Source: a virus. From it: a stretch of 50,568 nucleotides of DNA. Made by a program: the position numbers and the translations under genes. Each line of letters begins with the position of its first letter. Within the stretch, counting starts at the first letter, position 1. Location of the stretch: IMG/VR virus record IMGVR_UViG_3300047548_001036, positions 64,001 through 114,568 of that record, one strand, 5' to 3'. This document shows, one piece after another, positions 15,897 through 50,568 of this stretch. The notes below the pieces were generated by a model. That model was not told where the DNA came from. It did not search any database and saw only the letters and a list, made by a program, of their open reading frames with translations.

Positions 15897-16952
15897 ATGT
15901 CTATTAGTATTAATCATCAAACAAATAACATCACTTCTTCTGGAAATATTGTTATATCCGGTAGTGGGGCTCTGACAATACCGCTAGGAACCACAGCAGA
16001 ACGACCGGCTAGTCCATCAAATGGCATGCTTCGCTATAATACAACATTAAATGTTTATGAAGTATATTCAACAGTAACTAGTAGCTGGAGATTTACCCCA
16101 TTAGGAGATGTTATCGTTCAGGCAGCAACTAACGGTGAGCAAGTATATACTAACCCGGGAAGTTATAGTTGGGTATGCCCTGCTGGAGTCACTGCGGTAT
16201 GCGTGCTAGTAGTCGGTGCAGGGGGAGGAGGCGTTGGATATTCACAATACTCAGGTGCAGGGGGAGGGGGCGGACTAGCATATTTAAATAATATTCCAGT
16301 AACCCCAGGAAACAGCTATACTGTAGTAGTCGGGGCTGGAGGGAATGCGGCCGTAGGCGTTGCCAGCAATGCCGGTAGTGGTGGGACTAGTTATTTTATA
16401 AACACTTCTACAATATATGCCACAGGCGGATCTGGAGGTCAGTACCAAGGTACCGCGGCATCAGGTGGAACTGGATTTTATATTTCAAGCATCTATGGGT
16501 CTGGTGCTGCAAATACCGGCGGAAGTGGTGGGTACGCGGTGGGTACCACCGCTGGCGCGGCAGGCGGCGGAGGGGCTGCAGGCTATAGTGGCCCGGGTGG
16601 AAACGGTGGTAGTATTATTGCATCGGGCAATGGCACCTCCGCTAGCGCAGGATCCGGGGGGGGAGGTGGAGGCGGTGGCTTCACCACCACTAACACTTTA
16701 TCCGGCGGGGGAGGAGGAGGAGTAGGAATATACGGACTCGGTACGAGTGGAGCTGCCGCATCAGCGATGGGCGCCGGTGGTGGTGGTGGAAGCGGTGGAA
16801 GCAGCGGGTCCGGAACTGTACCTGGAGCTTACGGAGGGGGCGGAGGGGCAAGTGATGCTTTAGGGGGCGCCGCGCCTGGTGCCGATGGCGTTGTACGAAT
16901 CATCTGGGGACCAAATAGAGCATTCCCATCAACTAATACAGGAGCACTGTAA
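15897..16952 (+). CDS. Glycine-rich tip adhesin
   Basis: A 351-residue protein. Residues 1-80 hold a fibre-type N-terminus (GTTAERPASPSNGMLRYNTT, a motif common in phage fibres). From about 85 on, the protein is extremely glycine-rich with GGGG runs separated by short loops (VVGAGGGGVGYSQYSGAGGG), ending DGVVRIIWG. Polyglycine motifs with variable loops are known for the gp38-type tip adhesins of T-even phages, where glycine runs form a polyglycine-helix sandwich. By analogy this is likely a receptor-binding tip. GC content rises locally because of GGN codons. Its stop overlaps the next gene. Confidence 0.7.
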   Translation: MSISINHQTNNITSSGNIVISGSGALTIPLGTTAERPASPSNGMLRYNTTLNVYEVYSTVTSSWRFTPLGDVIVQAATNGEQVYTNPGSYSWVCPAGVTAVCVLVVGAGGGGVGYSQYSGAGGGGGLAYLNNIPVTPGNSYTVVVGAGGNAAVGVASNAGSGGTSYFINTSTIYATGGSGGQYQGTAASGGTGFYISSIYGSGAANTGGSGGYAVGTTAGAAGGGGAAGYSGPGGNGGSIIASGNGTSASAGSGGGGGGGGFTTTNTLSGGGGGGVGIYGLGTSGAAASAMGAGGGGGSGGSSGSGTVPGAYGGGGGASDALGGAAPGADGVVRIIWGPNRAFPSTNTGAL

Positions 16953-17329
16953 TGATAGAACTTTATAGTTACAAAGGAGCTTACCCTTACCCGCTTCCCG
17001 AGGATATGTCTAACTATCTACTAGAAGACTTTGTGTTAGCACCAAGTAAACCAGATCTTTTAATTGACGAATTTCTAGACTGGGATGGTAGCAACTGGAT
17101 TGTTCGCAAAGCGAATGCTTCGGAAACCTCAATAAAAGGACAAGAAGTACGAGATTTTAGAAATTTACTGTTAGATAAATCCGACATAGATATTATACAG
17201 TCATACGAAAAGTCCTTAACAGGACAATCCGTAGATGCAACTAGTTTGATTATTTACCGTCAACAGCTAAGAGACATAACAACTCAACCGGGATTTCCTT
17301 GGGAAATAGTTTGGCCTGAAAAACCCTAA
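16952..17329 (+). CDS. Probable phage tail-assembly chaperone
   Basis: A 125-residue protein overlapping the adhesin stop by one base (TAATG). The central FLDWDGSNWIVRKA and the C-terminal YRQQLRDITTQPGFPWEIVW resemble the Phage_tail_APC family, which ends in a conserved R-Q-x-L-R-D...WP pattern. Such proteins help fold or attach the fibre encoded just upstream, here the glycine-rich adhesin. The gene is the last of the fibre block; a sigma70-like promoter for the next block starts about 20 bases later. Confidence 0.6.
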   Translation: MIELYSYKGAYPYPLPEDMSNYLLEDFVLAPSKPDLLIDEFLDWDGSNWIVRKANASETSIKGQEVRDFRNLLLDKSDIDIIQSYEKSLTGQSVDATSLIIYRQQLRDITTQPGFPWEIVWPEKP

Positions 17330-17350: not shown

Positions 17351-17379
17351 TTGACTTCATATTAAACTTGCTGTAAAAT
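17351..17379 (+). promoter_or_regulatory. Sigma70-like promoter of the glycan cassette
   Basis: TTGACT (17351-17356), 17-base spacer, TAAAAT (17374-17379). The predicted start near 17386 leaves a leader of only about 11 bases before ATG 17397, without a Shine-Dalgarno. Confidence 0.6.
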
Positions 17380-17396
17380 GTCAATTTTATACTATT

Positions 17397-18038
17397 ATGA
17401 AGAAGATTTTAATTGCTACACCCTGCCTTGATCAAAAGGTAGATGCGTATTTTGTGCACAGTCTTTGTGAATCAATAAAACTAGGATTAAAGCACAATCT
17501 TGATATAAGGTGTGTGTTCCTAGCCAACGAAAGTATCTTGCCCATGGCCAGAAACGAACTGTTTGATCTTGCCTATAAAGAACAGTACGACGTCATGGTT
17601 TTTATCGACGATGACGAATACTGGAAAGAAGATTACCTAATCGAAATTATTAAATCAGAGAAGGATGTCGTTTGTTTACCCGTTGTTAACAAAGGAGACA
17701 AACAGATTGGATTTAATATTCTTTCGGATCTTACTGATCGAGACCCAGCAGACGGATATTATCAAACAAAAAAGGTAGGTGCCGGGTTCTTAAAGCTATC
17801 AAGAAAAGTTGTGGTCGATCTATGGGAATCAAATACTGAGCTATCATTTCGCAATAAAAAAATAAAAAATATTTGCGAATATACATATGCTAGTGGTTCG
17901 TTTGTGGGCGAAGACATTACATTATCTAATAAGATTAGAGAGCTAGGTTATACAATTTGGATTAATCCAAATCATACCGTTAGCCATATTGGTAATAAAA
18001 TGTATACTGGCGATTTTATCAAATCTCAAAATCTATGA
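17397..18038 (+). CDS. Glycosyltransferase, GT-A fold
   Basis: A 213-residue protein. MKKILIATPCLDQKVD starts a Rossmann-like GT-A domain. VFIDDDEYW (Asp71-73) is the DxD-type metal/nucleotide-sugar site. GEDITLSNKIRELGYTIWIN near residue 180 is the usual acceptor/GED region, and NHTVSHIGNKMYTGDF ends the protein. It would transfer a sugar from a nucleotide sugar, probably in the cytoplasm. The acceptor is unknown. It heads a row of sugar-modifying genes after its own promoter, so phage-directed change of host surface glycans or of virion proteins is likely. The next gene overlaps it by ATGA. Confidence 0.75.
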   Translation: MKKILIATPCLDQKVDAYFVHSLCESIKLGLKHNLDIRCVFLANESILPMARNELFDLAYKEQYDVMVFIDDDEYWKEDYLIEIIKSEKDVVCLPVVNKGDKQIGFNILSDLTDRDPADGYYQTKKVGAGFLKLSRKVVVDLWESNTELSFRNKKIKNICEYTYASGSFVGEDITLSNKIRELGYTIWINPNHTVSHIGNKMYTGDFIKSQNL

Positions 18039-19318
18039 GTAAAATCGATATAATTATTCCTACCATGTGGGCTCCAGCATCTGCGTTAGATGCAATTACG
18101 CATTACTGCCAATCTACAATAATTAATAAAATAATTATCATAGACAATAATCGAGCAGCTAGACCTAAAGATCCTATCTTTAATCAAGATAAGATAGAAA
18201 TTGTAGATTACGGGAGAAATATCTATGTCAATCCTGCATGGAACGAAGGAGTTGCCCGAGCGACTTCTGACTTAGTGTGCATTTTAAATGATGACATATT
18301 CGTTTCAAATGAAATATTTGAGATGATAGCTCAGCAGAACTTCGATGCCATTGACTTAATTGGTGTGAACCTTAGAGGTGCTCACGACAATTACACCATT
18401 ACCGATCATGAAGATAATACTGATCGGCTTGTTCGTTTAAATTACGATATAAACAGACCCATTGGGGGGCAGGCGTGGGCATTTGGTATTTGCATGTTTA
18501 TGCAGAGGAAAAAGTATTCCATAATTCCCAGTCTATATCAAGTATGGTACGGTGATGACTACATTGCACAGCGATCTACTAATATATACGCACTTAATAC
18601 CAATAAGATCAAAGGTAAAATTTCGGCTACGTTAACAAAACACTCGTCTCCAAACAGCGATATTTCTAAACGTGTCGAACTCGATTCGAAGAATTTTATT
18701 CGCTTCGGTCACTTCAGAAATGGGAACAGCTGGGACATTGCACAAAATACTATCAAAAGACTTGAATCAGAAAGAAAAATGGAATCAATATTTCCTAATG
18801 AATATCATCTAGCAAAAACAACGCCTAGCGATATAAATGAAAACGTACATATTCTTTATGAGTTAGCGACCCAATGCGATTCAGTTGTAGAAATGGGTGT
18901 GAGAACCGGAGTAAGTACCAGAGCATTTTTGAACACCGATGTTAAACTAACCTCTTACGATATTGCATTAGACAACAAAGTCGGGCAATTATTTGGTATT
19001 GCAAAACACCTGGGCAAAAATGTAAATTACATACAAGCAAATGTCTTAGACATCGAAATTGAAGAGTGTGATTTGTTGTTTATTGATACGTTACATACAT
19101 ATAAACAATTAAGCACTGAACTAAAGCTACACGGTAATAAAGCTAAACGATACATTGCATTTCACGATACACACACATTTGGATTAAGAGACGAAGTTAG
19201 TAATGAAAACAACGGACTCTTACCTGCAATAATTGAATTCATGATCATTAATCCTCATTGGCGGTTTAAGATATATAAAACAAATAATAACGGGTTAACC
19301 GTTTTGGAGAGACAATGA
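18035..19318 (+). CDS. Two-domain glycosyltransferase-methyltransferase fusion
   Basis: A 427-residue protein. Residues 1-240 form a family-2-like glycosyltransferase (IDIIIPTMWAP, ILNDDIFVSNE as the DxD-like site, GGQAWAFGICMFMQRKKY). Residues 265-427 form a class I SAM-dependent methyltransferase of the type with VVEMGVRTGVST (motif I, 283-294) and DLLFIDTLHTYKQL (near 345) followed by YIAFHDTHTFG. A sugar transferred by the first domain could be methylated by the second. ATGA overlap with the upstream gene and a four-base overlap with the downstream one show an operon. Substrates are unknown. Confidence 0.75.
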   Translation: MSKIDIIIPTMWAPASALDAITHYCQSTIINKIIIIDNNRAARPKDPIFNQDKIEIVDYGRNIYVNPAWNEGVARATSDLVCILNDDIFVSNEIFEMIAQQNFDAIDLIGVNLRGAHDNYTITDHEDNTDRLVRLNYDINRPIGGQAWAFGICMFMQRKKYSIIPSLYQVWYGDDYIAQRSTNIYALNTNKIKGKISATLTKHSSPNSDISKRVELDSKNFIRFGHFRNGNSWDIAQNTIKRLESERKMESIFPNEYHLAKTTPSDINENVHILYELATQCDSVVEMGVRTGVSTRAFLNTDVKLTSYDIALDNKVGQLFGIAKHLGKNVNYIQANVLDIEIEECDLLFIDTLHTYKQLSTELKLHGNKAKRYIAFHDTHTFGLRDEVSNENNGLLPAIIEFMIINPHWRFKIYKTNNNGLTVLERQ

Positions 19319-20214
19319 AATATAGTATTTTTCACGTACAAGGTGGAATTGGAAAACATGTTGCTGCAACAGCGGTAGCCAAAGCAATCAAAAATAATCA
19401 TCCTGATCGTAAACTAATCGTGGTGTGTGCATATCCGGATATTTTTAATAATTTAGAGTTCGTAGACCGTGTTTACACCATAGGTAAAACTTCATACTTT
19501 TATCAAAATTATATTCAGGATAAGGATTCAGTGGTTTTTCATCACGAGCCCTACTATACCACGGATCATATTCACAAAAGATTGCCATTAATTCAAAACT
19601 GGTGTAAGTTATATGGGTTAACCTATAATAATGAAGCACCGGTTGTTAAATTTAATAAATTGCAGTATGATCTTTCCAAGAAATACTGGGTTAATCAATC
19701 CAAACCCATTATGGTATTACATACTAATGGTGGTATGATGACCACTGACGCTAAACCCTATGCATGGACCCGAGATATGCCGGAAGATATAGCGCAGGCA
19801 TTGGTAGATCATTACAAAAAAGACTATTGTATCTACCAAGTTACGAAAATGAACTCTCCCAAACTTACAGGAGCAAGGCATGTTTTTGCCACCCCCGAAC
19901 ATTCGCTATCCATGATGGAGTTCTTTAGTATACTGCTACACAGTAAAAAGAGAATTTTAATTGATTCTTCTCTTCAGCACGTAGCTGCAGCACTTAAACG
20001 CCCTTCCACAGTTCTGTGGAATGGGACTTCCCCAACAGTGTTTGGTTATGATTTACATACTAATATATGTACAAAAGTACCATACAATTTTAAATTGCCG
20101 GGCAGTTACCTTTTTGACTTTGACTTTAACGGCAATGAAGTTGAATACCCGTTTACAGAAGATCAGAAGCTATTTGATTTAGAAGAAATTATTAAATCAG
20201 TTGATGCACAATAA
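19315..20214 (+). CDS. Heptosyltransferase-like glycosyltransferase (GT9/GT-B)
   Basis: A 299-residue protein. HVQGGIGKHVAATAVAKAI at the N-terminus and DRKLIVVCAYPDIF, VDRVYTIG recall the ADP-heptose:LPS heptosyltransferase family. The C-terminal half has MVLHTNGGM and DSSLQHVAAALKRPSTVLWN with SPTVFGYDLHTNI, matching the second Rossmann domain and its nucleotide-sugar loop. Family enzymes add heptose to lipopolysaccharide core; here the real donor is not known. It overlaps the upstream gene by four bases. In a phage it could reshape host LPS against superinfection or decorate the virion. Confidence 0.7.
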   Translation: MKYSIFHVQGGIGKHVAATAVAKAIKNNHPDRKLIVVCAYPDIFNNLEFVDRVYTIGKTSYFYQNYIQDKDSVVFHHEPYYTTDHIHKRLPLIQNWCKLYGLTYNNEAPVVKFNKLQYDLSKKYWVNQSKPIMVLHTNGGMMTTDAKPYAWTRDMPEDIAQALVDHYKKDYCIYQVTKMNSPKLTGARHVFATPEHSLSMMEFFSILLHSKKRILIDSSLQHVAAALKRPSTVLWNGTSPTVFGYDLHTNICTKVPYNFKLPGSYLFDFDFNGNEVEYPFTEDQKLFDLEEIIKSVDAQ

Positions 20215-20223
20215 GGAAAAACA

Positions 20224-21159
20224 ATGAAGAAAAAATATTATTTTATGGCAGGACTGCCGCGTAGTGGCAGCACAATGCTATCTGCAATTCTTAACCAGAA
20301 TCCTAGATTCTACTCGGGACCTAGTTCTCCTGTTGTACCAACTATGTTAGCAATTGAACAATCGCTAGGACAGGATGAACTTTTTAATGCATTTCCAAAA
20401 ATGGAGTTTGCCAGTAACCTTATCAAATCCGTACTGGAGCAATATTATTCCGATACAGATAAACCAGTAATTTTTGAAAAAAATAGAAGCTGGGTTAATA
20501 GAATGGAATACATTCGAGGATATTTTGGTATTGAAAACGCCAAAGTACTATATCCAGTCAGGGATATTTCAGAAATATTGGCATCATTTATATCCATGAT
20601 AAAACGAAACCCAACCATTGTTAATGGAAGGTTAAACTTTATCGACCAAGCACTGGTACAGCAAGGCATTCCATTGACAGACGAAAATCGTTGCAAAGCA
20701 CTGGCAAATGGTGGAATACTAGGACAATCATACGAAGGTTTGAAAAAGGCATTAACTGAAGGGTACCGCAATAACATTCACTTTATTGAATATAAAGATT
20801 TGGTCAATAACCCAAGAGAGACTATGAAAAAAGTCTACGAGTTTCTTGGAGAGTCCTACTATCATCATGATTTTAAGAACTTAAAAAATATTCACCAAGA
20901 GGATGATGCAAGGATTTACGGATTTAACGACATGCACACGGTTAGGCCCTTAGTTAAATCTACTGCAGAATCTCCCGAAGATGTATTGCCTATGTCTATA
21001 ATTGAGGCTTCACGTGGTACTGAATTCTGGAGAGAATTCGTGGATACACCCCTGACCGAAGAAACTGATACTGTGGAGTCTGAAGTAACCAGTACGATAA
21101 ATAAACAGATGTTTTTCGGTGAAGTTATCGAAGACTTAAATGATTCTAGATTTATTTAA
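20224..21159 (+). CDS. PAPS-dependent sulfotransferase
   Basis: A 311-residue protein. MAGLPRSGSTMLSAILNQNP (P-loop-like 5'-phosphosulfate loop, residues 8-27) and VLYPVRDISEILASFISM (3'-phosphate site around 110-127) are the two signature motifs of sulfotransferases. IHFIEYKDLVNNPRETMKKV and VYEFLGE near 205 are also typical of the family. It would move sulfate from PAPS to a hydroxyl on a glycan or protein. It has an AAGGAAAA ribosome site nine bases after the GT9 gene. An APS-kinase-like gene two genes downstream could supply PAPS. Confidence 0.8.
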   Translation: MKKKYYFMAGLPRSGSTMLSAILNQNPRFYSGPSSPVVPTMLAIEQSLGQDELFNAFPKMEFASNLIKSVLEQYYSDTDKPVIFEKNRSWVNRMEYIRGYFGIENAKVLYPVRDISEILASFISMIKRNPTIVNGRLNFIDQALVQQGIPLTDENRCKALANGGILGQSYEGLKKALTEGYRNNIHFIEYKDLVNNPRETMKKVYEFLGESYYHHDFKNLKNIHQEDDARIYGFNDMHTVRPLVKSTAESPEDVLPMSIIEASRGTEFWREFVDTPLTEETDTVESEVTSTINKQMFFGEVIEDLNDSRFI

Positions 21160-21173
21160 CAAGGAGATTTAAA

Positions 21174-21449
21174 ATGGAAGAAACAAGACAGCGTACTTTA
21201 GAAGAAATTCAAGGAACTATTAGAGCAGCACGAGACAGTGTCTGGGTTGTCAACGATACACTTGCTAAACTTGCTGAAGGTGCCGCATCCAATAACGAAT
21301 TAAAGGGTAACCTTGAGCGTAATGTTGGTCATTTAAAACTAGTAGTAGCTGATCCAGAAATTATCGCGTCAAACGAAGATATAGCAGACTTACATACAGC
21401 TATAGCAGCTGGCGAAGCTAAACTAGCTGAAGCAATTTGGCCTGCATAA
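21174..21449 (+). CDS. Small helical protein, function unknown
   Basis: A 91-residue acidic protein (METRQ-like start, LEEIQGTIRAARDSVWVVND, LHTAIAAGEAKLAEAIWPA). It seems almost wholly alpha-helical with heptad-like spacing and no membrane segment. A strong AAGGAG precedes ATG 21174. I do not recognise the family. It sits between the sulfotransferase and the APS-kinase-like gene and may be a partner or simply a co-transcribed virion protein. Confidence 0.6.
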   Translation: MEETRQRTLEEIQGTIRAARDSVWVVNDTLAKLAEGAASNNELKGNLERNVGHLKLVVADPEIIASNEDIADLHTAIAAGEAKLAEAIWPA

Positions 21450-21467
21450 TCATAATTACTTTAATAT

Positions 21468-21980
21468 ATGAGCGAACGAATCTTAATTATGGGGCTGCCC
21501 GGAGCAGGTAAAACTTTTTTTGCAGAAAGGCTCAAGAAGTACATAGAAACATACTCTGTAAACTATGACTTTCCCTTACATTTAAAAGTTACGCAAGAGA
21601 TGCCGGTTTTACATAAATGGGAAGCCACGGTGAAATGGTTTAATGCTGATGAGATTCGTAAAGAGTATAATGATTGGGACTTCAGCAACGAAGGGCGTAT
21701 TCGACAAAGTTTGCGTATGTTTAACTTTGCAATGAAGTCCACCACAGACTACGTCATCTGCGACTTCGTTGCTCCTCTTACTGAGATGAGAAATAATTTT
21801 AAAGCAGATTGGACTATTTGGATTGACACCATCAAACAAAGCCGGTTTGAAGATACGAACAAAGTTTTCGAGCCTCCTTCCAAGTATGACTTTAGAATTA
21901 CTGAACAAAATGCAGATAAATGGGTACCAATCGTAGCCAACTACATATTAAGTAATCAAAGGCCTAACATTCAGAGTTAA
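21468..21980 (+). CDS. Adenylylsulfate kinase-like P-loop protein
   Basis: A 170-residue P-loop kinase of the CysC-like type. GLPGAGKT (residues 9-16) is Walker A. WFNADEIRKEYNDWDFS corresponds to the family's DGDNxR region, RIRQSLRMF follows, and ICDFVAPLTEMRNNF matches the FISP-type motif. WIDTIKQSRFEDTNKVFEPP is the lid/substrate loop seen in phage and bacterial homologues. APS kinase makes PAPS, the donor used by sulfotransferases, one of which is encoded just upstream. The usual DGDN is changed to NADE, so substrate use should be checked. No clear Shine-Dalgarno before ATG 21468. Confidence 0.65.
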   Translation: MSERILIMGLPGAGKTFFAERLKKYIETYSVNYDFPLHLKVTQEMPVLHKWEATVKWFNADEIRKEYNDWDFSNEGRIRQSLRMFNFAMKSTTDYVICDFVAPLTEMRNNFKADWTIWIDTIKQSRFEDTNKVFEPPSKYDFRITEQNADKWVPIVANYILSNQRPNIQS

Positions 21981-22028: not shown

Positions 22029-22033
22029 CTTTA

Positions 22034-22059
22034 GGACTGCAATGCAGTCCTTTATTTTT
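22034..22059 (+). terminator. Rho-independent terminator after the glycan cassette
   Basis: GGACTGCAATGCAGTCC hairpin followed by TTTATTTTT. It closes the transcript that begins at 17.35 kb. Confidence 0.8.
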
Positions 22060-22075: not shown

Positions 22076-23572
22076 ATGGAGATATTAAAAGAATATGTTA
22101 TAACCCTTTATCATTTGAGCGAATTAGAGGAATTCTATAATGATATGGAAACTCTTCGACCAACTCTTTATAACTGTATGCCCGAAAGGTCAATAGTCAT
22201 AGCCTTAAGAAGGCCCTTAAGTCGAAATACACACTACTGGCTATATGATTACGAAGTAGAAGGACTAAGAAAGGATCCTAGAATTGCTGCGATAAATTTA
22301 AAACCCGTAGAACTAGGAATGAAGGTTCGCCGATTATGGACGGAGACCAGTGACGAGTGGAATAAATCTAGTACCGTCAAAGCCAGTCACAAAAATTGGG
22401 GATTACTGCGAGTAATTGAAGGAGCACAAAGAGAAGGATGGGGTTCCGATAATATCCCAAATCAATCTGCAAGTATATCCCTAACAGAAGAAGGACGAAA
22501 TGTTGATATAATCATTGTCGACGGACACATTGATCCAGAACATCCAGAATTTGATAATCGTGTTAAACAGTTAGACTGGAATACTTTAACGGCAGATGTG
22601 TTAGGCATAGACAATGACTTTGCTGGAGGGTTAAGCAGTAAATATGTGTACGCATTTTATACCGGAAAAGAAGATAATAATCATGCAACACATGTTGCGG
22701 GGATTGCTGCGGGTAATAGCCAGGGGTGGGCAAGAAGTGCAAATATCTATAACATTAGTCCATATGATAGTAATCCCAATAAAGTAAGCGAACTAATCAT
22801 AATGGATTATATACGAGCGTTTCATAGAAATAAAGAAATAAATCCAGACACAGGATATAAAACCCCCACTATTGTCAATAACAGTTGGGGATATAACTAT
22901 GAAATTTACTTGGATAATGATCCTGTTTTAAATGTAATATATCAAGGTAACTATATAGAAGGACCATTTACAGAGTATGAGTTACAAAATTACGGAATAT
23001 TCATAGATAATGGTGTATGTTATGCGCCGGCTTCGTATATTGCTGTCGACGCCGATGTTGAAGATGCTATCTCCGAAGGGATTATTGTGGTAGGGGCAGC
23101 TGGAAACGAAGGTACTAAAATTGATTTACACGGTGGCATTGATTACAACAATTGCTTCACCACCAAAAAAGTAGGCACTGTATTTTATAATAGAGGAAGC
23201 AGTCCCGGTAAAGCAGTAGGTAGCATATGTGTAGGTAGCATCGATGCACTAAGTACAGAATACAAAGCAATATATAGTAATTGCGGTCCTAGAGTTGATA
23301 TATTTGCACCTGGAACAAACATTATTAGCAGTACGATAAGCGGCGGAGTTCCTGACCCTAGAGGTAACGGATTTTTAGACAAATACAGCGGCACTAGCAT
23401 GGCGTGCCCACAAGTATGTGGTCTATTGGCTTGTGCATTAGAACTAAATCCAACTATGACACCTGAAGGCGCATTGAATTATTTAATTGAGCATTCAAAA
23501 CATAATCAAATCACAGACGACACCTATCTCAGAAGCCTTCAAGGTGCACCTAATAGATACCTGGCACGGTAA
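22076..23572 (+). CDS. Subtilisin-like serine protease (S8), virion-associated type
   Basis: A 498-residue S8-family protease. Residues 1-95 resemble an inhibitor-I9-like prodomain (YVITLYHLSELEEFYNDM, GLRKDPRIAAIN). The catalytic triad is visible as IIVDGHIDPEHPEFD (Asp149), NNHATHVAG (His203) and GTSMACPQVCG (Ser441), with the oxyanion Asn in GAAGNEG (Asn344). From memory, close relatives occur in T4-like cyanophages as structural proteins. There is no secretion signal, so it probably acts in or on the virion, for example in maturing fibres or at the host surface. ATG 22076 has AAGGA upstream. Confidence 0.8.
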   Translation: MEILKEYVITLYHLSELEEFYNDMETLRPTLYNCMPERSIVIALRRPLSRNTHYWLYDYEVEGLRKDPRIAAINLKPVELGMKVRRLWTETSDEWNKSSTVKASHKNWGLLRVIEGAQREGWGSDNIPNQSASISLTEEGRNVDIIIVDGHIDPEHPEFDNRVKQLDWNTLTADVLGIDNDFAGGLSSKYVYAFYTGKEDNNHATHVAGIAAGNSQGWARSANIYNISPYDSNPNKVSELIIMDYIRAFHRNKEINPDTGYKTPTIVNNSWGYNYEIYLDNDPVLNVIYQGNYIEGPFTEYELQNYGIFIDNGVCYAPASYIAVDADVEDAISEGIIVVGAAGNEGTKIDLHGGIDYNNCFTTKKVGTVFYNRGSSPGKAVGSICVGSIDALSTEYKAIYSNCGPRVDIFAPGTNIISSTISGGVPDPRGNGFLDKYSGTSMACPQVCGLLACALELNPTMTPEGALNYLIEHSKHNQITDDTYLRSLQGAPNRYLAR

Positions 23573-47290: not shown

Positions 47291-47866
47291 ATGAATTCTG
47301 ACATAATGGTCGACCTTGAGACTCTGGCAACATCATCAGATGCCGCAGTTCTTACCATTGGTGCAGTAAAATTCGATCCATTTGGCGATGAGCTCAACGA
47401 TAACAAAATGCAGAGCTTTTACGCTAAAATCGATGTAGATAGCTGCGATAGGTTGGGATTAGTTACCAGCGACAGTACCATAGAATGGTGGAGTAAGCAG
47501 AGCCCAGAAGCACAAGAAGAAGCATTTAGCACTGATGGCAGAGTTGACATAGTTGATGCTATGAACGACTTTTATAAATTCTGTTGGGGTTCAAAGCGTA
47601 TTTGGAGTCACGGAGCAGGTTTCGACGTAGTTATTTTGGAAACTATTTTCCGAAGAATTAACAAAGCATACCCCTGGCAGTATTGGGGTGTTCGAGACAC
47701 ACGTACTCTATTTGATATGGGCATTGATCCTAAGCGTCCTCCTGTACTAGCACACCATGCACTGCAAGATGCATGGAATCAAGCTGTAGGTGTGCAAAAC
47801 GTATGCCGTGAACTACGCAACCGAGGTGTAGAAATGTTTAAGGATTTACGCAATGAATCCGCATGA
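47291..47866 (+). CDS. DEDD-type 3'-5' exonuclease (DexA-like)
   Basis: A 191-residue exonuclease. IMVDLETLAT (Asp8, Glu10), IGAVKFDPFGDEL, TIEWWSKQSPEAQ, WSHGAGFDVVILE (second Asp) and HHALQDAWNQA (catalytic His and last Asp) are the DEDDh core. RDTRTLFDMG is typical of the T4 DexA/exonuclease-VIII-like family. It would trim 3' ends of DNA or RNA. It follows its own promoter and overlaps the next gene by 14 bases. Confidence 0.82.
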   Translation: MNSDIMVDLETLATSSDAAVLTIGAVKFDPFGDELNDNKMQSFYAKIDVDSCDRLGLVTSDSTIEWWSKQSPEAQEEAFSTDGRVDIVDAMNDFYKFCWGSKRIWSHGAGFDVVILETIFRRINKAYPWQYWGVRDTRTLFDMGIDPKRPPVLAHHALQDAWNQAVGVQNVCRELRNRGVEMFKDLRNESA

Positions 47867-48149
47867 TCAAATGATGGAGGCTCTTAGCATCCTCCAAGAA
47901 GAGTGTGCCGAAACCATCGTTGTTATAAGCAAAATACGTAGATTCGGATTAGACACAGAATACCTTAGGGGAGAGGGCACTAAACGAGATGCACTTGTAC
48001 AAGAACTAGGGGACATGCTGGCTATGATCGGAGTGCTCGTTAAACAAGGTGTTATTGATCCAGAAGCCATGGAAACTGCATCACAAAATAAAATCGAAAA
48101 GCTAAAAGAATTTTCAAATCTTAGAAATTTAGACAACGTTCTGAGATAA
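47853..48149 (+). CDS. MazG-like NTP pyrophosphohydrolase domain protein
   Basis: A 98-residue all-helical protein. QEECAETIVVISKIRRFG with QELGDMLAMIGVLVKQGV and NKIEKLKEF matches the MazG/HisE-type fold, in which the acids in EECAE and ELGD bind Mg-NTP. It could clean non-canonical NTPs or lower (p)ppGpp-related signals, as proposed for other phage MazG proteins. It overlaps the exonuclease gene by 14 bases. Substrate unknown. Confidence 0.7.
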   Translation: MNPHDQMMEALSILQEECAETIVVISKIRRFGLDTEYLRGEGTKRDALVQELGDMLAMIGVLVKQGVIDPEAMETASQNKIEKLKEFSNLRNLDNVLR

Positions 48150-48152
48150 ATA
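48147..48152 (+). promoter_or_regulatory. TAAATA motif fused to a stop codon, before dnaK
   Basis: AGATAAATAAAT overlaps the stop of the MazG-like gene, 78 bases before dnaK. No heat-shock type promoter was seen in the gap. Confidence 0.4.
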
Positions 48153-48230
48153 AATTTGTAGAACGCCATACGGGTTTTACATCGGGCAAAGTCCCAAATC
48201 ATAAATCTTGCTTAATAAGGAGAAAAAATC

Positions 48231-50102
48231 ATGAGTAAAGTTATCGGTATTGACTTAGGTACCACCAATAGTTGCGTTGCTGTTTTAGAAAATGGCGTTG
48301 CTAAAATTATCGAAAACAGCGAAGGCGCAAGAACTACCCCTTCAATTATCGCATACACTGCCGACGAAGTACTAGTTGGCGCAAGTGCCAAGCGACAATC
48401 AGTTACTAACCCCAAAAATACCATTTATGCAGCTAAACGACTGATTGGTCGTAAATTTAAAGAAGAAGCTGTACAAAAAGACATCGATCTTATGCCTTAT
48501 GAAATCATGGAGGCTAAAAATGGCGATGCCTGGGTTAAAGCACAAGGAAAAGAACTGGCTCCGCCACAAATCAGTGCAGAAGTGTTACGTAAAATGAAGC
48601 AAACTGCCGAGGACTATCTTGGCAATCCTGTTACACAAGCTGTTATCACAGTTCCTGCTTATTTCAACGATAGCCAGCGTCAGGCTACCAAAGATGCCGG
48701 GAAAATCGCAGGGCTAGAAGTTCTTCGTATTATCAACGAACCCACTGCTGCAGCTCTTGCCTACGGTGTGGATAAGACTGACAAATCTGATCGTAAAATT
48801 GCAGTGTATGACCTTGGTGGCGGTACATTTGACGTCAGTATTATTGAAATTGCCAATGTCGACGGAGACAAGCAAATCGAAGTGTTAAGCACTAACGGAG
48901 ATACTTTCCTTGGCGGGGAGGATTTTGACCAACGTATCATGGATTATCTCTGCGACGAATTCAAGAAAGAACAAGGTATTGATCTTAAAAAAGACATGCT
49001 AGCACTTCAGCGCCTAAAAGAGGCTGCAGAGCGTGCAAAAATTGAATTGTCTAGTAGTACGCAAACAGACGTTAACTTACCGTATGTTACAGCAGATGCT
49101 ACGGGTCCCAAGCATCTTAATATCAGGCTAACCCGTGCTAAATTTGAGGCAATGGTGGAAGATCTTATTGAACGAAGCTTGACTCCTTGCCGTACTGCTA
49201 TGAAAGACGCAGGAGTTAGTGCCAGCGAGATCGACGAAATTATTCTTGTCGGTGGTCAAACTCGCATGCCTAAAGTACAAGAGGCTGTGGAAAAGCTGTT
49301 TGGAAAAACTCCACGCAAAGACGTTAACCCAGATGAAGCAGTTGCTGCAGGTGCAGCTATTCAAGGCGCTGTATTAAGCGGAGATCGTAAAGACGTATTG
49401 CTATTAGATGTTACCCCACTAAGTCTGGGTATTGAAACTATGGGCGGTGTCTTTACTAAGATCATTCAGAAGAATACCACTATTCCTACCAAGGCAAGTC
49501 AGGTATTCTCTACAGCTGAAGACAATCAGCCTGCAGTTACAATTAAAGTCGGACAAGGTGAACGAGACATTTTCCAGTATAACAAGCTACTAGGAGAGTT
49601 CAACTTAGATGGTATTGCTCCTGCACCACGCGGTACTCCACAAATAGAAGTTACATTTGACATTGACGCCAACGGCATTATGAATATTAGTGCAAAGGAT
49701 AAAGGTACTGGCAAAGAGAACAAGATTACTATCAAGAGTGATAGCGGTCTGAGTAAAGATCAGATTGAAAAAATGATCCAAGAAGCAGAAGCCAATGCCG
49801 AATCTGATCGAAAACAAAAAGAGCTAATTGAAGCTCGTAATCAGGCTGAAGCAACGATTCATAAGGTAAAAACTGATATGAAAGAAGCTAGTGATGCCCT
49901 AGCAGAGGATGTTAAAATCAAGGTTAACTCTGCAATTTCAGATGTGGAAACTGCGATGTCGGGAGATGATGTATCTGCAATTCAAGAGACTATTGGTAAA
50001 CTGTTTGAAGCCAGTCAGGCGATTTTAGAAGCAAAGTCTAAGTCTACAAAAACTGAAAACAGCGACGATGTAATTGACGCAGAAGTTAAGGAAACTGCTT
50101 AA
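48231..50102 (+). CDS. dnaK: Full-length Hsp70 chaperone
   Basis: A 623-residue Dna[15 protein letters not shown] (phosphate 1), [46 protein letters not shown] (phosphate 2) and [15 protein letters not shown] (adenosine) are intact, so ATPase activity is expected. The linker [15 protein letters not shown] leads to the substrate domain, then a helical lid ending [12 protein letters not shown]. It is close, from memory, to betaproteobacterial DnaK ([18 protein letters not shown]). No dnaJ or grpE is in the window, so host partners would be used. Strong AAGGAG. A terminator and Hsp20 follow. Confidence 0.95.
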
Positions 50103-50165: not shown

Positions 50166-50568
50166 ATGAATAATTTAACACGTTTTGATCCAAATGCCTT
50201 AAATCGGGCCCTGATCGGATTTGATCGTTTATTCGACGATATCGAACGTCGATTTGCAAACTCTACTAATAACTACCCACCGTATAACATTATCCAGCAT
50301 AATGACAATTCATATGAGATTGAAATCGCAGTAGCTGGGTTTAATCGAGAAAATGTTTCTGTTGAAGTTGACCAAGATCAACTTCGAATTACAGGTAAAC
50401 AGCCAAGCCGTGATGAAACCACTAAGTATATACATAGAGGACTGGCAGCTAGAGACTTTGAGCGAGTGTTTACCCTAGCAGATCACATGGAAGTGGGTGA
50501 AGCAGAAATGACAGATGGCATTTTACGTGTTATAATTACACGTATAATTCCAGAAGAATTAAAACCTC
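50166..50568 (+). CDS. Hsp20 small heat-shock protein (3' truncated by window end)
   Basis: At least 134 residues, open to the window end. MNNLTRFDPNALNRALIGFD, RLFDDIERRF is the N-terminal arm of IbpA-type proteins. The alpha-crystallin domain follows: NSYEIEIAVAGFNRENVSVE, LRITGKQP, RDFERVFTLADHMEVGEAEM and DGILRVIITRIIPEE. Hsp20 binds unfolded proteins and passes them to DnaK. T4-like cyanophages also carry Hsp20 and it is thought to help virion assembly. AAAGGAG stands before ATG 50166. The end of the gene is not in the window. Confidence 0.9.
   Translation, partial: MNNLTRFDPNALNRALIGFDRLFDDIERRFANSTNNYPPYNIIQHNDNSYEIEIAVAGFNRENVSVEVDQDQLRITGKQPSRDETTKYIHRGLAARDFERVFTLADHMEVGEAEMTDGILRVIITRIIPEELKP

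Follow-up and report, generated by a model that had tools for sequence, protein, structure and literature searches.

A six-gene phage operon between tail-fibre and neck genes

We analyzed a window of 50,568 nucleotides (bases 64001-114568 of a 114,568-base IMG/VR virus record) that derives from a freshwater phage. An earlier note had read six of its genes as one phage cassette; we confirmed all six ORFs on the plus strand, with unchanged coordinates, and found them packed as one operon, with 4-base overlaps between genes 1 and 2 and between genes 2 and 3, and gaps of 9-18 bases thereafter. The operon, which is common to other lake and marine phages, encodes a GT2-like (GT-A) glycosyltransferase of 213 aa (17397..18038), a GT2-methyltransferase fusion of 427 aa (18035..19318), a GT9/heptosyltransferase-like glycosyltransferase of 299 aa (19315..20214), a predicted PAPS-dependent sulfotransferase of 311 aa (20224..21159), a small protein of 91 aa (21174..21449) and an APS-kinase-like P-loop kinase of 170 aa in a single-domain form (21468..21980).

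The analysis supports a phage origin of the cassette, and the operon adjoins tail-fibre genes. Upstream, also on the plus strand, lie genes for a glycine-rich tail-fibre-like protein (15897..16952; Gly_rich_2 2e-10; phrog_4474 3e-52) and a tail fibre assembly chaperone-like protein (16952..17329; Phage_tail_APC 1e-11). Directly past the operon terminator is a subtilase gene (window 22076-23572; Peptidase_S8 2e-32; phrog_9158), and the module as a whole occupies a position between tail-fibre and neck genes in the late region. Megablast of the 15-kb neighbourhood returned no close phage record, and an Rfam search of the region gave no matches.

The proposed promoter corresponds to the best plus-strand match in the region, TTGACT-17-TAAAAT at 17351..17379 (10/12 consensus). 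Such matches are no commoner there than in shuffled sequence, however (26 versus 22.6 +/- 4), so this promoter is plausible only. The T4-type late promoter TATAAATA showed no excess in the region and did not occur ahead of the operon. The terminator-like hairpin on the plus strand (22033..22051), an 8-pair stem followed by a T-rich run, looks real (z -3.4), but it lies just outside the end that had been assigned to the operon.

Family and fold assignment of the glycosyltransferases

Family assignments previously made from motifs held. The first gene product, which is conserved in the cassette, is GT2-like, with a weak match to PF00535 (E 0.005) and a match to phrog_1574 (7e-15). The second combines PF00535 (5e-5) with PF13578 (Methyltransf_24, 2e-5), as expected of a glycosyltransferase-methyltransferase fusion, and several relatives keep the glycosyltransferase half alone. 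Its sequence profile found one weak glycosyltransferase structure match (E 0.0056), and the profiles of the GT9 protein and the 213-aa glycosyltransferase matched no solved structure.

By sequence, the third gene product is a marginal GT9 member (Glyco_transf_9 7e-4), scoring 19.4 bits against a Pfam gathering cut-off of 22. Its AF2 model (pLDDT 85.6), in contrast, matched 3tov over the whole length (Z 23.0, 269 aligned, rmsd 2.9), followed by WaaF (Z 20.5), the protein heptosyltransferase TibC (19.6) and WaaC (18.9), with all unrelated structure classes below Z 12. The GT9-type GT-B fold is thus confirmed at the level of a predicted structure, and the heptosyltransferase-like call stands. The protein shares this whole-length fold with WaaF, WaaC and TibC (Z 19-23), but is only 10-14% identical to them and under the Pfam GT9 cut-off. 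The 91-aa protein had no family match in profile searches; it was seen only in these cassettes, where it is conserved between sulfotransferase and kinase.

The sulfotransferase carries both PAPS motifs

The fourth gene product belongs clearly to the Sulfotransfer_3 family (7e-18; 66.1 bits versus a Pfam gathering cut-off of 27). It has the 5'-phosphosulfate loop, GLPRSGST, and R113 and S121, which occupy the place of the 3'-phosphate site, are invariant in 44 rows of relatives. With both PAPS motifs present, the enzyme is predicted to depend on PAPS, as the earlier note had held. Phage sulfotransferases are common, with more than 600 pattern matches in IMG/VR. Proteins of the same family, 34-36% identical, are encoded by cyanophages S-SKS1 and S-SRM01 and by OM43 phages, in which PF13469 was reported and its function called unclear (PMC10580990). 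Those reports concern single genes, whereas here a conserved GT9-sulfotransferase module occurs together with a kinase.

The cassette recurs, with the kinase as an optional member

The same gene order was found in about twelve viral contigs from environmental samples, with proteins 50-83% identical (L006, L007, L025, L058, L178, L179, L180, L184, L189, L197 and L198, for example), some of which are near-copies and three of which (L007, L025 and L058) have an extra gene inside. The cassette genes do occur together, so the refuting condition of the earlier note, that close relatives are found singly and never as a set, does not hold. The small gene is missing in L070/L072, and cassettes L181, L183, L186, L187 and L192 have no kinase within the sequence stretch examined.

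In 55 of the 79 closest sulfotransferase loci, a GT9 gene lies within 1.5 kb of the sulfotransferase gene, downstream in 34 and upstream in 21. Because both gene orders occur, the pair has remained linked despite rearrangement. A tail-fibre-like family was present in 51/79 of these loci, and a kinase within 8 kb of the sulfotransferase in 9/79. The core of the cassette is the sulfotransferase and GT9, and the kinase is optional. A protein of about 560 aa, by eye a NodU-like carbamoyltransferase, lies beside the sulfotransferase-GT9 pair in 27/79 loci (L207-L233, other marine loci).

Viewed from the kinase side, sulfotransferase was the commonest neighbour family (27/83 kinase loci); the other 56 loci have no sulfotransferase nearby and represent other modification or replication contexts, some with 7-deazaguanine or carbamoyltransferase genes. 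Sulfotransfer_3 was found in 14/42 kinase-bearing records of at least 28 kb and in 0/37 control records, which were kinase-free but had the structural gene that adjoins the kinase in other records (Fisher p 4e-5, without control for kinship); for records of at least 50 kb, p was 0.012. On the kinase tree, parsimony required at least 15 changes in the state of having a sulfotransferase neighbour, four of them forced by well-supported branches, and the label remained slightly more clustered than after shuffling. The repeated placement of different kinase lineages beside sulfotransferases favours a functional link between the two, whereas the majority of kinase loci without a sulfotransferase and the cassettes without a kinase speak against one.

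The kinase resembles APS kinase

The kinase gene product has a Walker A P-loop (GLPGAGKT) and exceeds the Pfam APS_kinase cut-off (PF01583 2e-5; 24.9 versus 21.1 bits). In an alignment with E. coli CysC, four of five APS contacts are kept (D61, R64, F72 and R77) and the contact Asn is replaced by Gln; the contact roles are those of the residues in the Penicillium enzyme. Canonical CysC was matched by a profile of 111 kinase relatives (96.9% probability, E 1.5e-10). In the model of a two-domain relative from L070 (pLDDT 75.8), ranks 1-18 were all APS kinases (Z 10.2-11.3); this came from per-domain realignment, the only informative comparison, as a Foldseek search with both domains together had no hit at E <= 0.001.

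Three features set the cassette kinase apart from CysC and the kinase domain of PAPS synthases, with which it otherwise shares P-loop, four contacts, fold (via the relative) and profile: the contact Asn is Gln, it scored 15.6 bits against the NCBIfam apsK equivalog cut-off of 138.7, a wide margin, and the lid KGLYKKARxG...FTG is absent from the alignment with CysC. The protein probably works like an APS kinase. Since fold, profile and four of five contacts fit but the equivalog cut-off was missed and the lid is absent, we retain the earlier designation "APS-kinase-like" and do not file it as an APS kinase.

The window kinase belongs to a two-domain family

Nearly all close relatives of the kinase are about 285 aa long and consist of the kinase domain followed by a second domain of about 115 aa, whose motifs (GRWQPWHxGH, NPF, GRxVGY and ISATKIR) are those of a HIGH-type adenylyltransferase. 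Among known families, archaeal NMN adenylyltransferase comes closest by sequence and PPAT by fold; comparisons of the second-domain profile with Sat, CoaD and NadD were all near chance. The window protein ends at the domain junction and is thus the one-domain form. Six-frame searches of the record, which may be incomplete, found no copy of the second domain (positive controls scored at least 200 bits). Truncation by a recent frameshift was rejected, because no second-domain remnant follows the stop codon or occurs elsewhere in the record; for the same reason, we regard the window kinase as an older single-domain form. It is a member of the two-domain family that has lost its second domain.

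The architecture of the relatives recalls human PAPSS1, a bifunctional PAPS synthase, in that an APS-kinase-like domain and a HIGH-type adenylyltransferase are fused, with the domain order unchanged. Their second domain differs, however, being only about 115 aa long, NMNAT/PPAT-like and not recognised as an ATP sulfurylase, and the one-domain window protein does not have the architecture of a kinase joined to a sulfate-adenylylating domain.

Two-domain kinases were seen in several other phage contexts. In one phage group (L010-L016, L019, L033 and L044), the gene lies in a cluster of the order FolE, cytidylyltransferase, kinase, PTPS and QueE-like protein, which suggests 7-deazaguanine modification. 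In L017-L022, L078 and L084 it follows a carbamoyltransferase gene, and in Sanovirus isolates (phage Bhz60, L092:5565-6741) it overlaps the NADAR-domain gene immediately upstream of it. A protein of about 320 aa (L049:2299-3249 and L057:7013-7996; family in 8 loci), encoded directly upstream of a real kinase, is kinase-like in its C-terminal part with a degenerate P-loop (GLPESSKN), and may be a pseudokinase.

Chromosomal relatives in marine bacteria

When 84,980 species genomes were scanned for the two-domain protein, it was found as a fused chromosomal gene in SAR11 (L260-L285), and both domains were found as adjacent chromosomal genes in SAR86 (L287-L336). The second domain occurred alone in SAR116 (L327/L333) and Marinoscillum (L288). 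We then surveyed sulfate-activation enzymes in 20 genomes with the pair or the second domain, several of them incomplete single-cell or metagenome assemblies. Sulfotransferase PF00685 was present in 18/20, including all eight SAR86 genomes. CysD was found in none of the 20, and ATP sulfurylase was present in four genomes, all outside SAR86. Canonical apsK passed the cut-off only in the three genomes with the second domain alone, and in none of the 17 with the kinase. A dephospho-CoA kinase, which together with a PPAT would make a CoA synthase, is an unlikely identity for the kinase, as 17/20 of the genomes have canonical CoaE.

A tblastn search of CP097973.1, a complete SAR86 chromosome, detected CysQ and found no CysC, CysD, CysH, CysI or CysJ. 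CysQ is also useful for the PAP released by holo-ACP synthase, so its presence lends weak support to PAPS production. SAR11 has been reported to have lost sulfate assimilation (cysDN, sat and cysHIJ), with cysC and cysQ appearing in the table of that study (PMC5069961). Neighbours of the kinase pair in SAR11 are largely glycan genes, with sulfotransferases making up 6/113 ORFs.

Because sulfotransferases are present and canonical APS kinase and ATP sulfurylase are absent, the pair is the best candidate for a PAPS synthase in the tested SAR86. The simplest reading is that the bacterial pair makes PAPS and that its adenylyltransferase takes the part of ATP sulfurylase. We tentatively suggest, as a possibility somewhat short of probable, that the full-length family (fused in phages and SAR11, encoded by adjacent genes in SAR86) represents a minimal PAPS synthase not described before, in which the adenylyltransferase replaces ATP sulfurylase. 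It would supply the sulfotransferases of ocean bacteria lacking sulfate assimilation and would have been recruited repeatedly by phages beside their own sulfotransferases. Searches of open-access literature turned up nothing relevant on a phage PAPS synthase or a SAR86 sulfotransferase, and the two-domain enzyme is the part of this work that could be new. The kinase makes a question testable, namely the source of PAPS in SAR86 and SAR11, which carry sulfotransferases but no canonical sulfate-assimilation enzymes.

Proposed function of the operon and alternatives

The genes and their families, two predicted folds (that of the kinase through a relative), the PAPS motifs and the repeated co-occurrence are observed here, whereas the substrates, the order of steps and the target are inferred. 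On balance we think it probable that the operon serves to make a sulfated glycan, carried by the tail fibre or the host surface. The two GT2-type enzymes (17397 and 18035) and the GT9 enzyme (19315) would assemble or decorate a sugar, to which the sulfotransferase (20224) would transfer sulfate from PAPS. The kinase (21468) would raise PAPS by phosphorylating APS supplied by the host or, in the relatives, by the second domain; such a boost of PAPS is its most likely role. The position of the module between the tail-fibre and neck genes makes tail fibres or the host envelope the most likely place for the sulfated product. Conserved and located beside tail fibres, the GT9-sulfotransferase module leads to the hypothesis that a glycan of the fibre or of the host surface is sulfated by phages.

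Sulfation of rhizobial Nod factors, with donor synthesis by NodPQ and the sulfotransferases NodH and NoeE, offers an analogy only: there, too, genes for donor synthesis and the sulfotransferase occur together with glycan genes. The cassette sulfotransferase gave a weak match to the NoeE model, but the cassette contains neither a homologous acceptor nor an ATP sulfurylase.

Alternatively, the glycan and sulfation genes might act as proposed and the kinase be no more than a passenger, with some general role in phages (in NAD or ribosyl salvage, for example), that ends the operon by chance. Most kinase loci indeed have no sulfotransferase, isolate phages have the kinase beside NADAR or oxygenase genes, the relatives' second domain has archaeal NMN adenylyltransferase as its nearest family in sequence, and NadD passed the cut-off in six SAR11 genomes and one SAR116 genome and in no SAR86. 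However, CP097973.1 encodes a separate 372-aa protein whose C-terminal half reads as NadD-like, and SAR11 has NadD, which weakens NMN adenylyltransferase as an alternative for the two-domain family. Given also that the kinase domain resembles APS kinase specifically, both in fold and in contact residues, and was repeatedly placed beside sulfotransferases, we consider a passenger kinase unlikely.

ADP-heptose is the donor used by GT9 enzymes, and in SAR11 L265-L267 SIS-domain genes and glycosyltransferases adjoin the kinase. The two-domain relatives could accordingly make a nucleotide-activated sugar for GT9, by kinase action and then adenylyl or cytidylyl transfer as in HldE, and not PAPS. The APS-site residues of the kinase argue against this, as do the window form, which has no transferase domain although GT9 is kept, and cassettes with GT9 but no kinase; we regard it as improbable. 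A role of the glycosyltransferases and sulfotransferase in modifying the bases of phage DNA, in place of a surface glycan, is very improbable. Phage glycosyltransferases can act on hypermodified bases, and some kinase relatives lie in FolE/QueD/QueE clusters, but most loci have tail-fibre-like genes next to the sulfotransferase-GT9 pair, those GT9 relatives whose function is known modify LPS or a protein, and the operon contains no base-modification gene.

Other genes in the same record

A second glycan locus lies near other structural genes of the same record, where the minus strand encodes a 1071-aa protein with GT1- and GT2-type domains (L004:16079-19294) and an FkbM methyltransferase (L004:13753-15012). 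A PLP enzyme on the minus strand (L004:7727-8914; record 47727-48914; Aminotran_1_2 1e-67) resembles 5-aminolevulinate synthase by eye. Near the end of the window, the phage encodes a full-length DnaK (Hsp70, 2e-262; window 48231-50102), followed by an ORF that reads as a small heat-shock protein and is cut by the record end (window 50166-50568).
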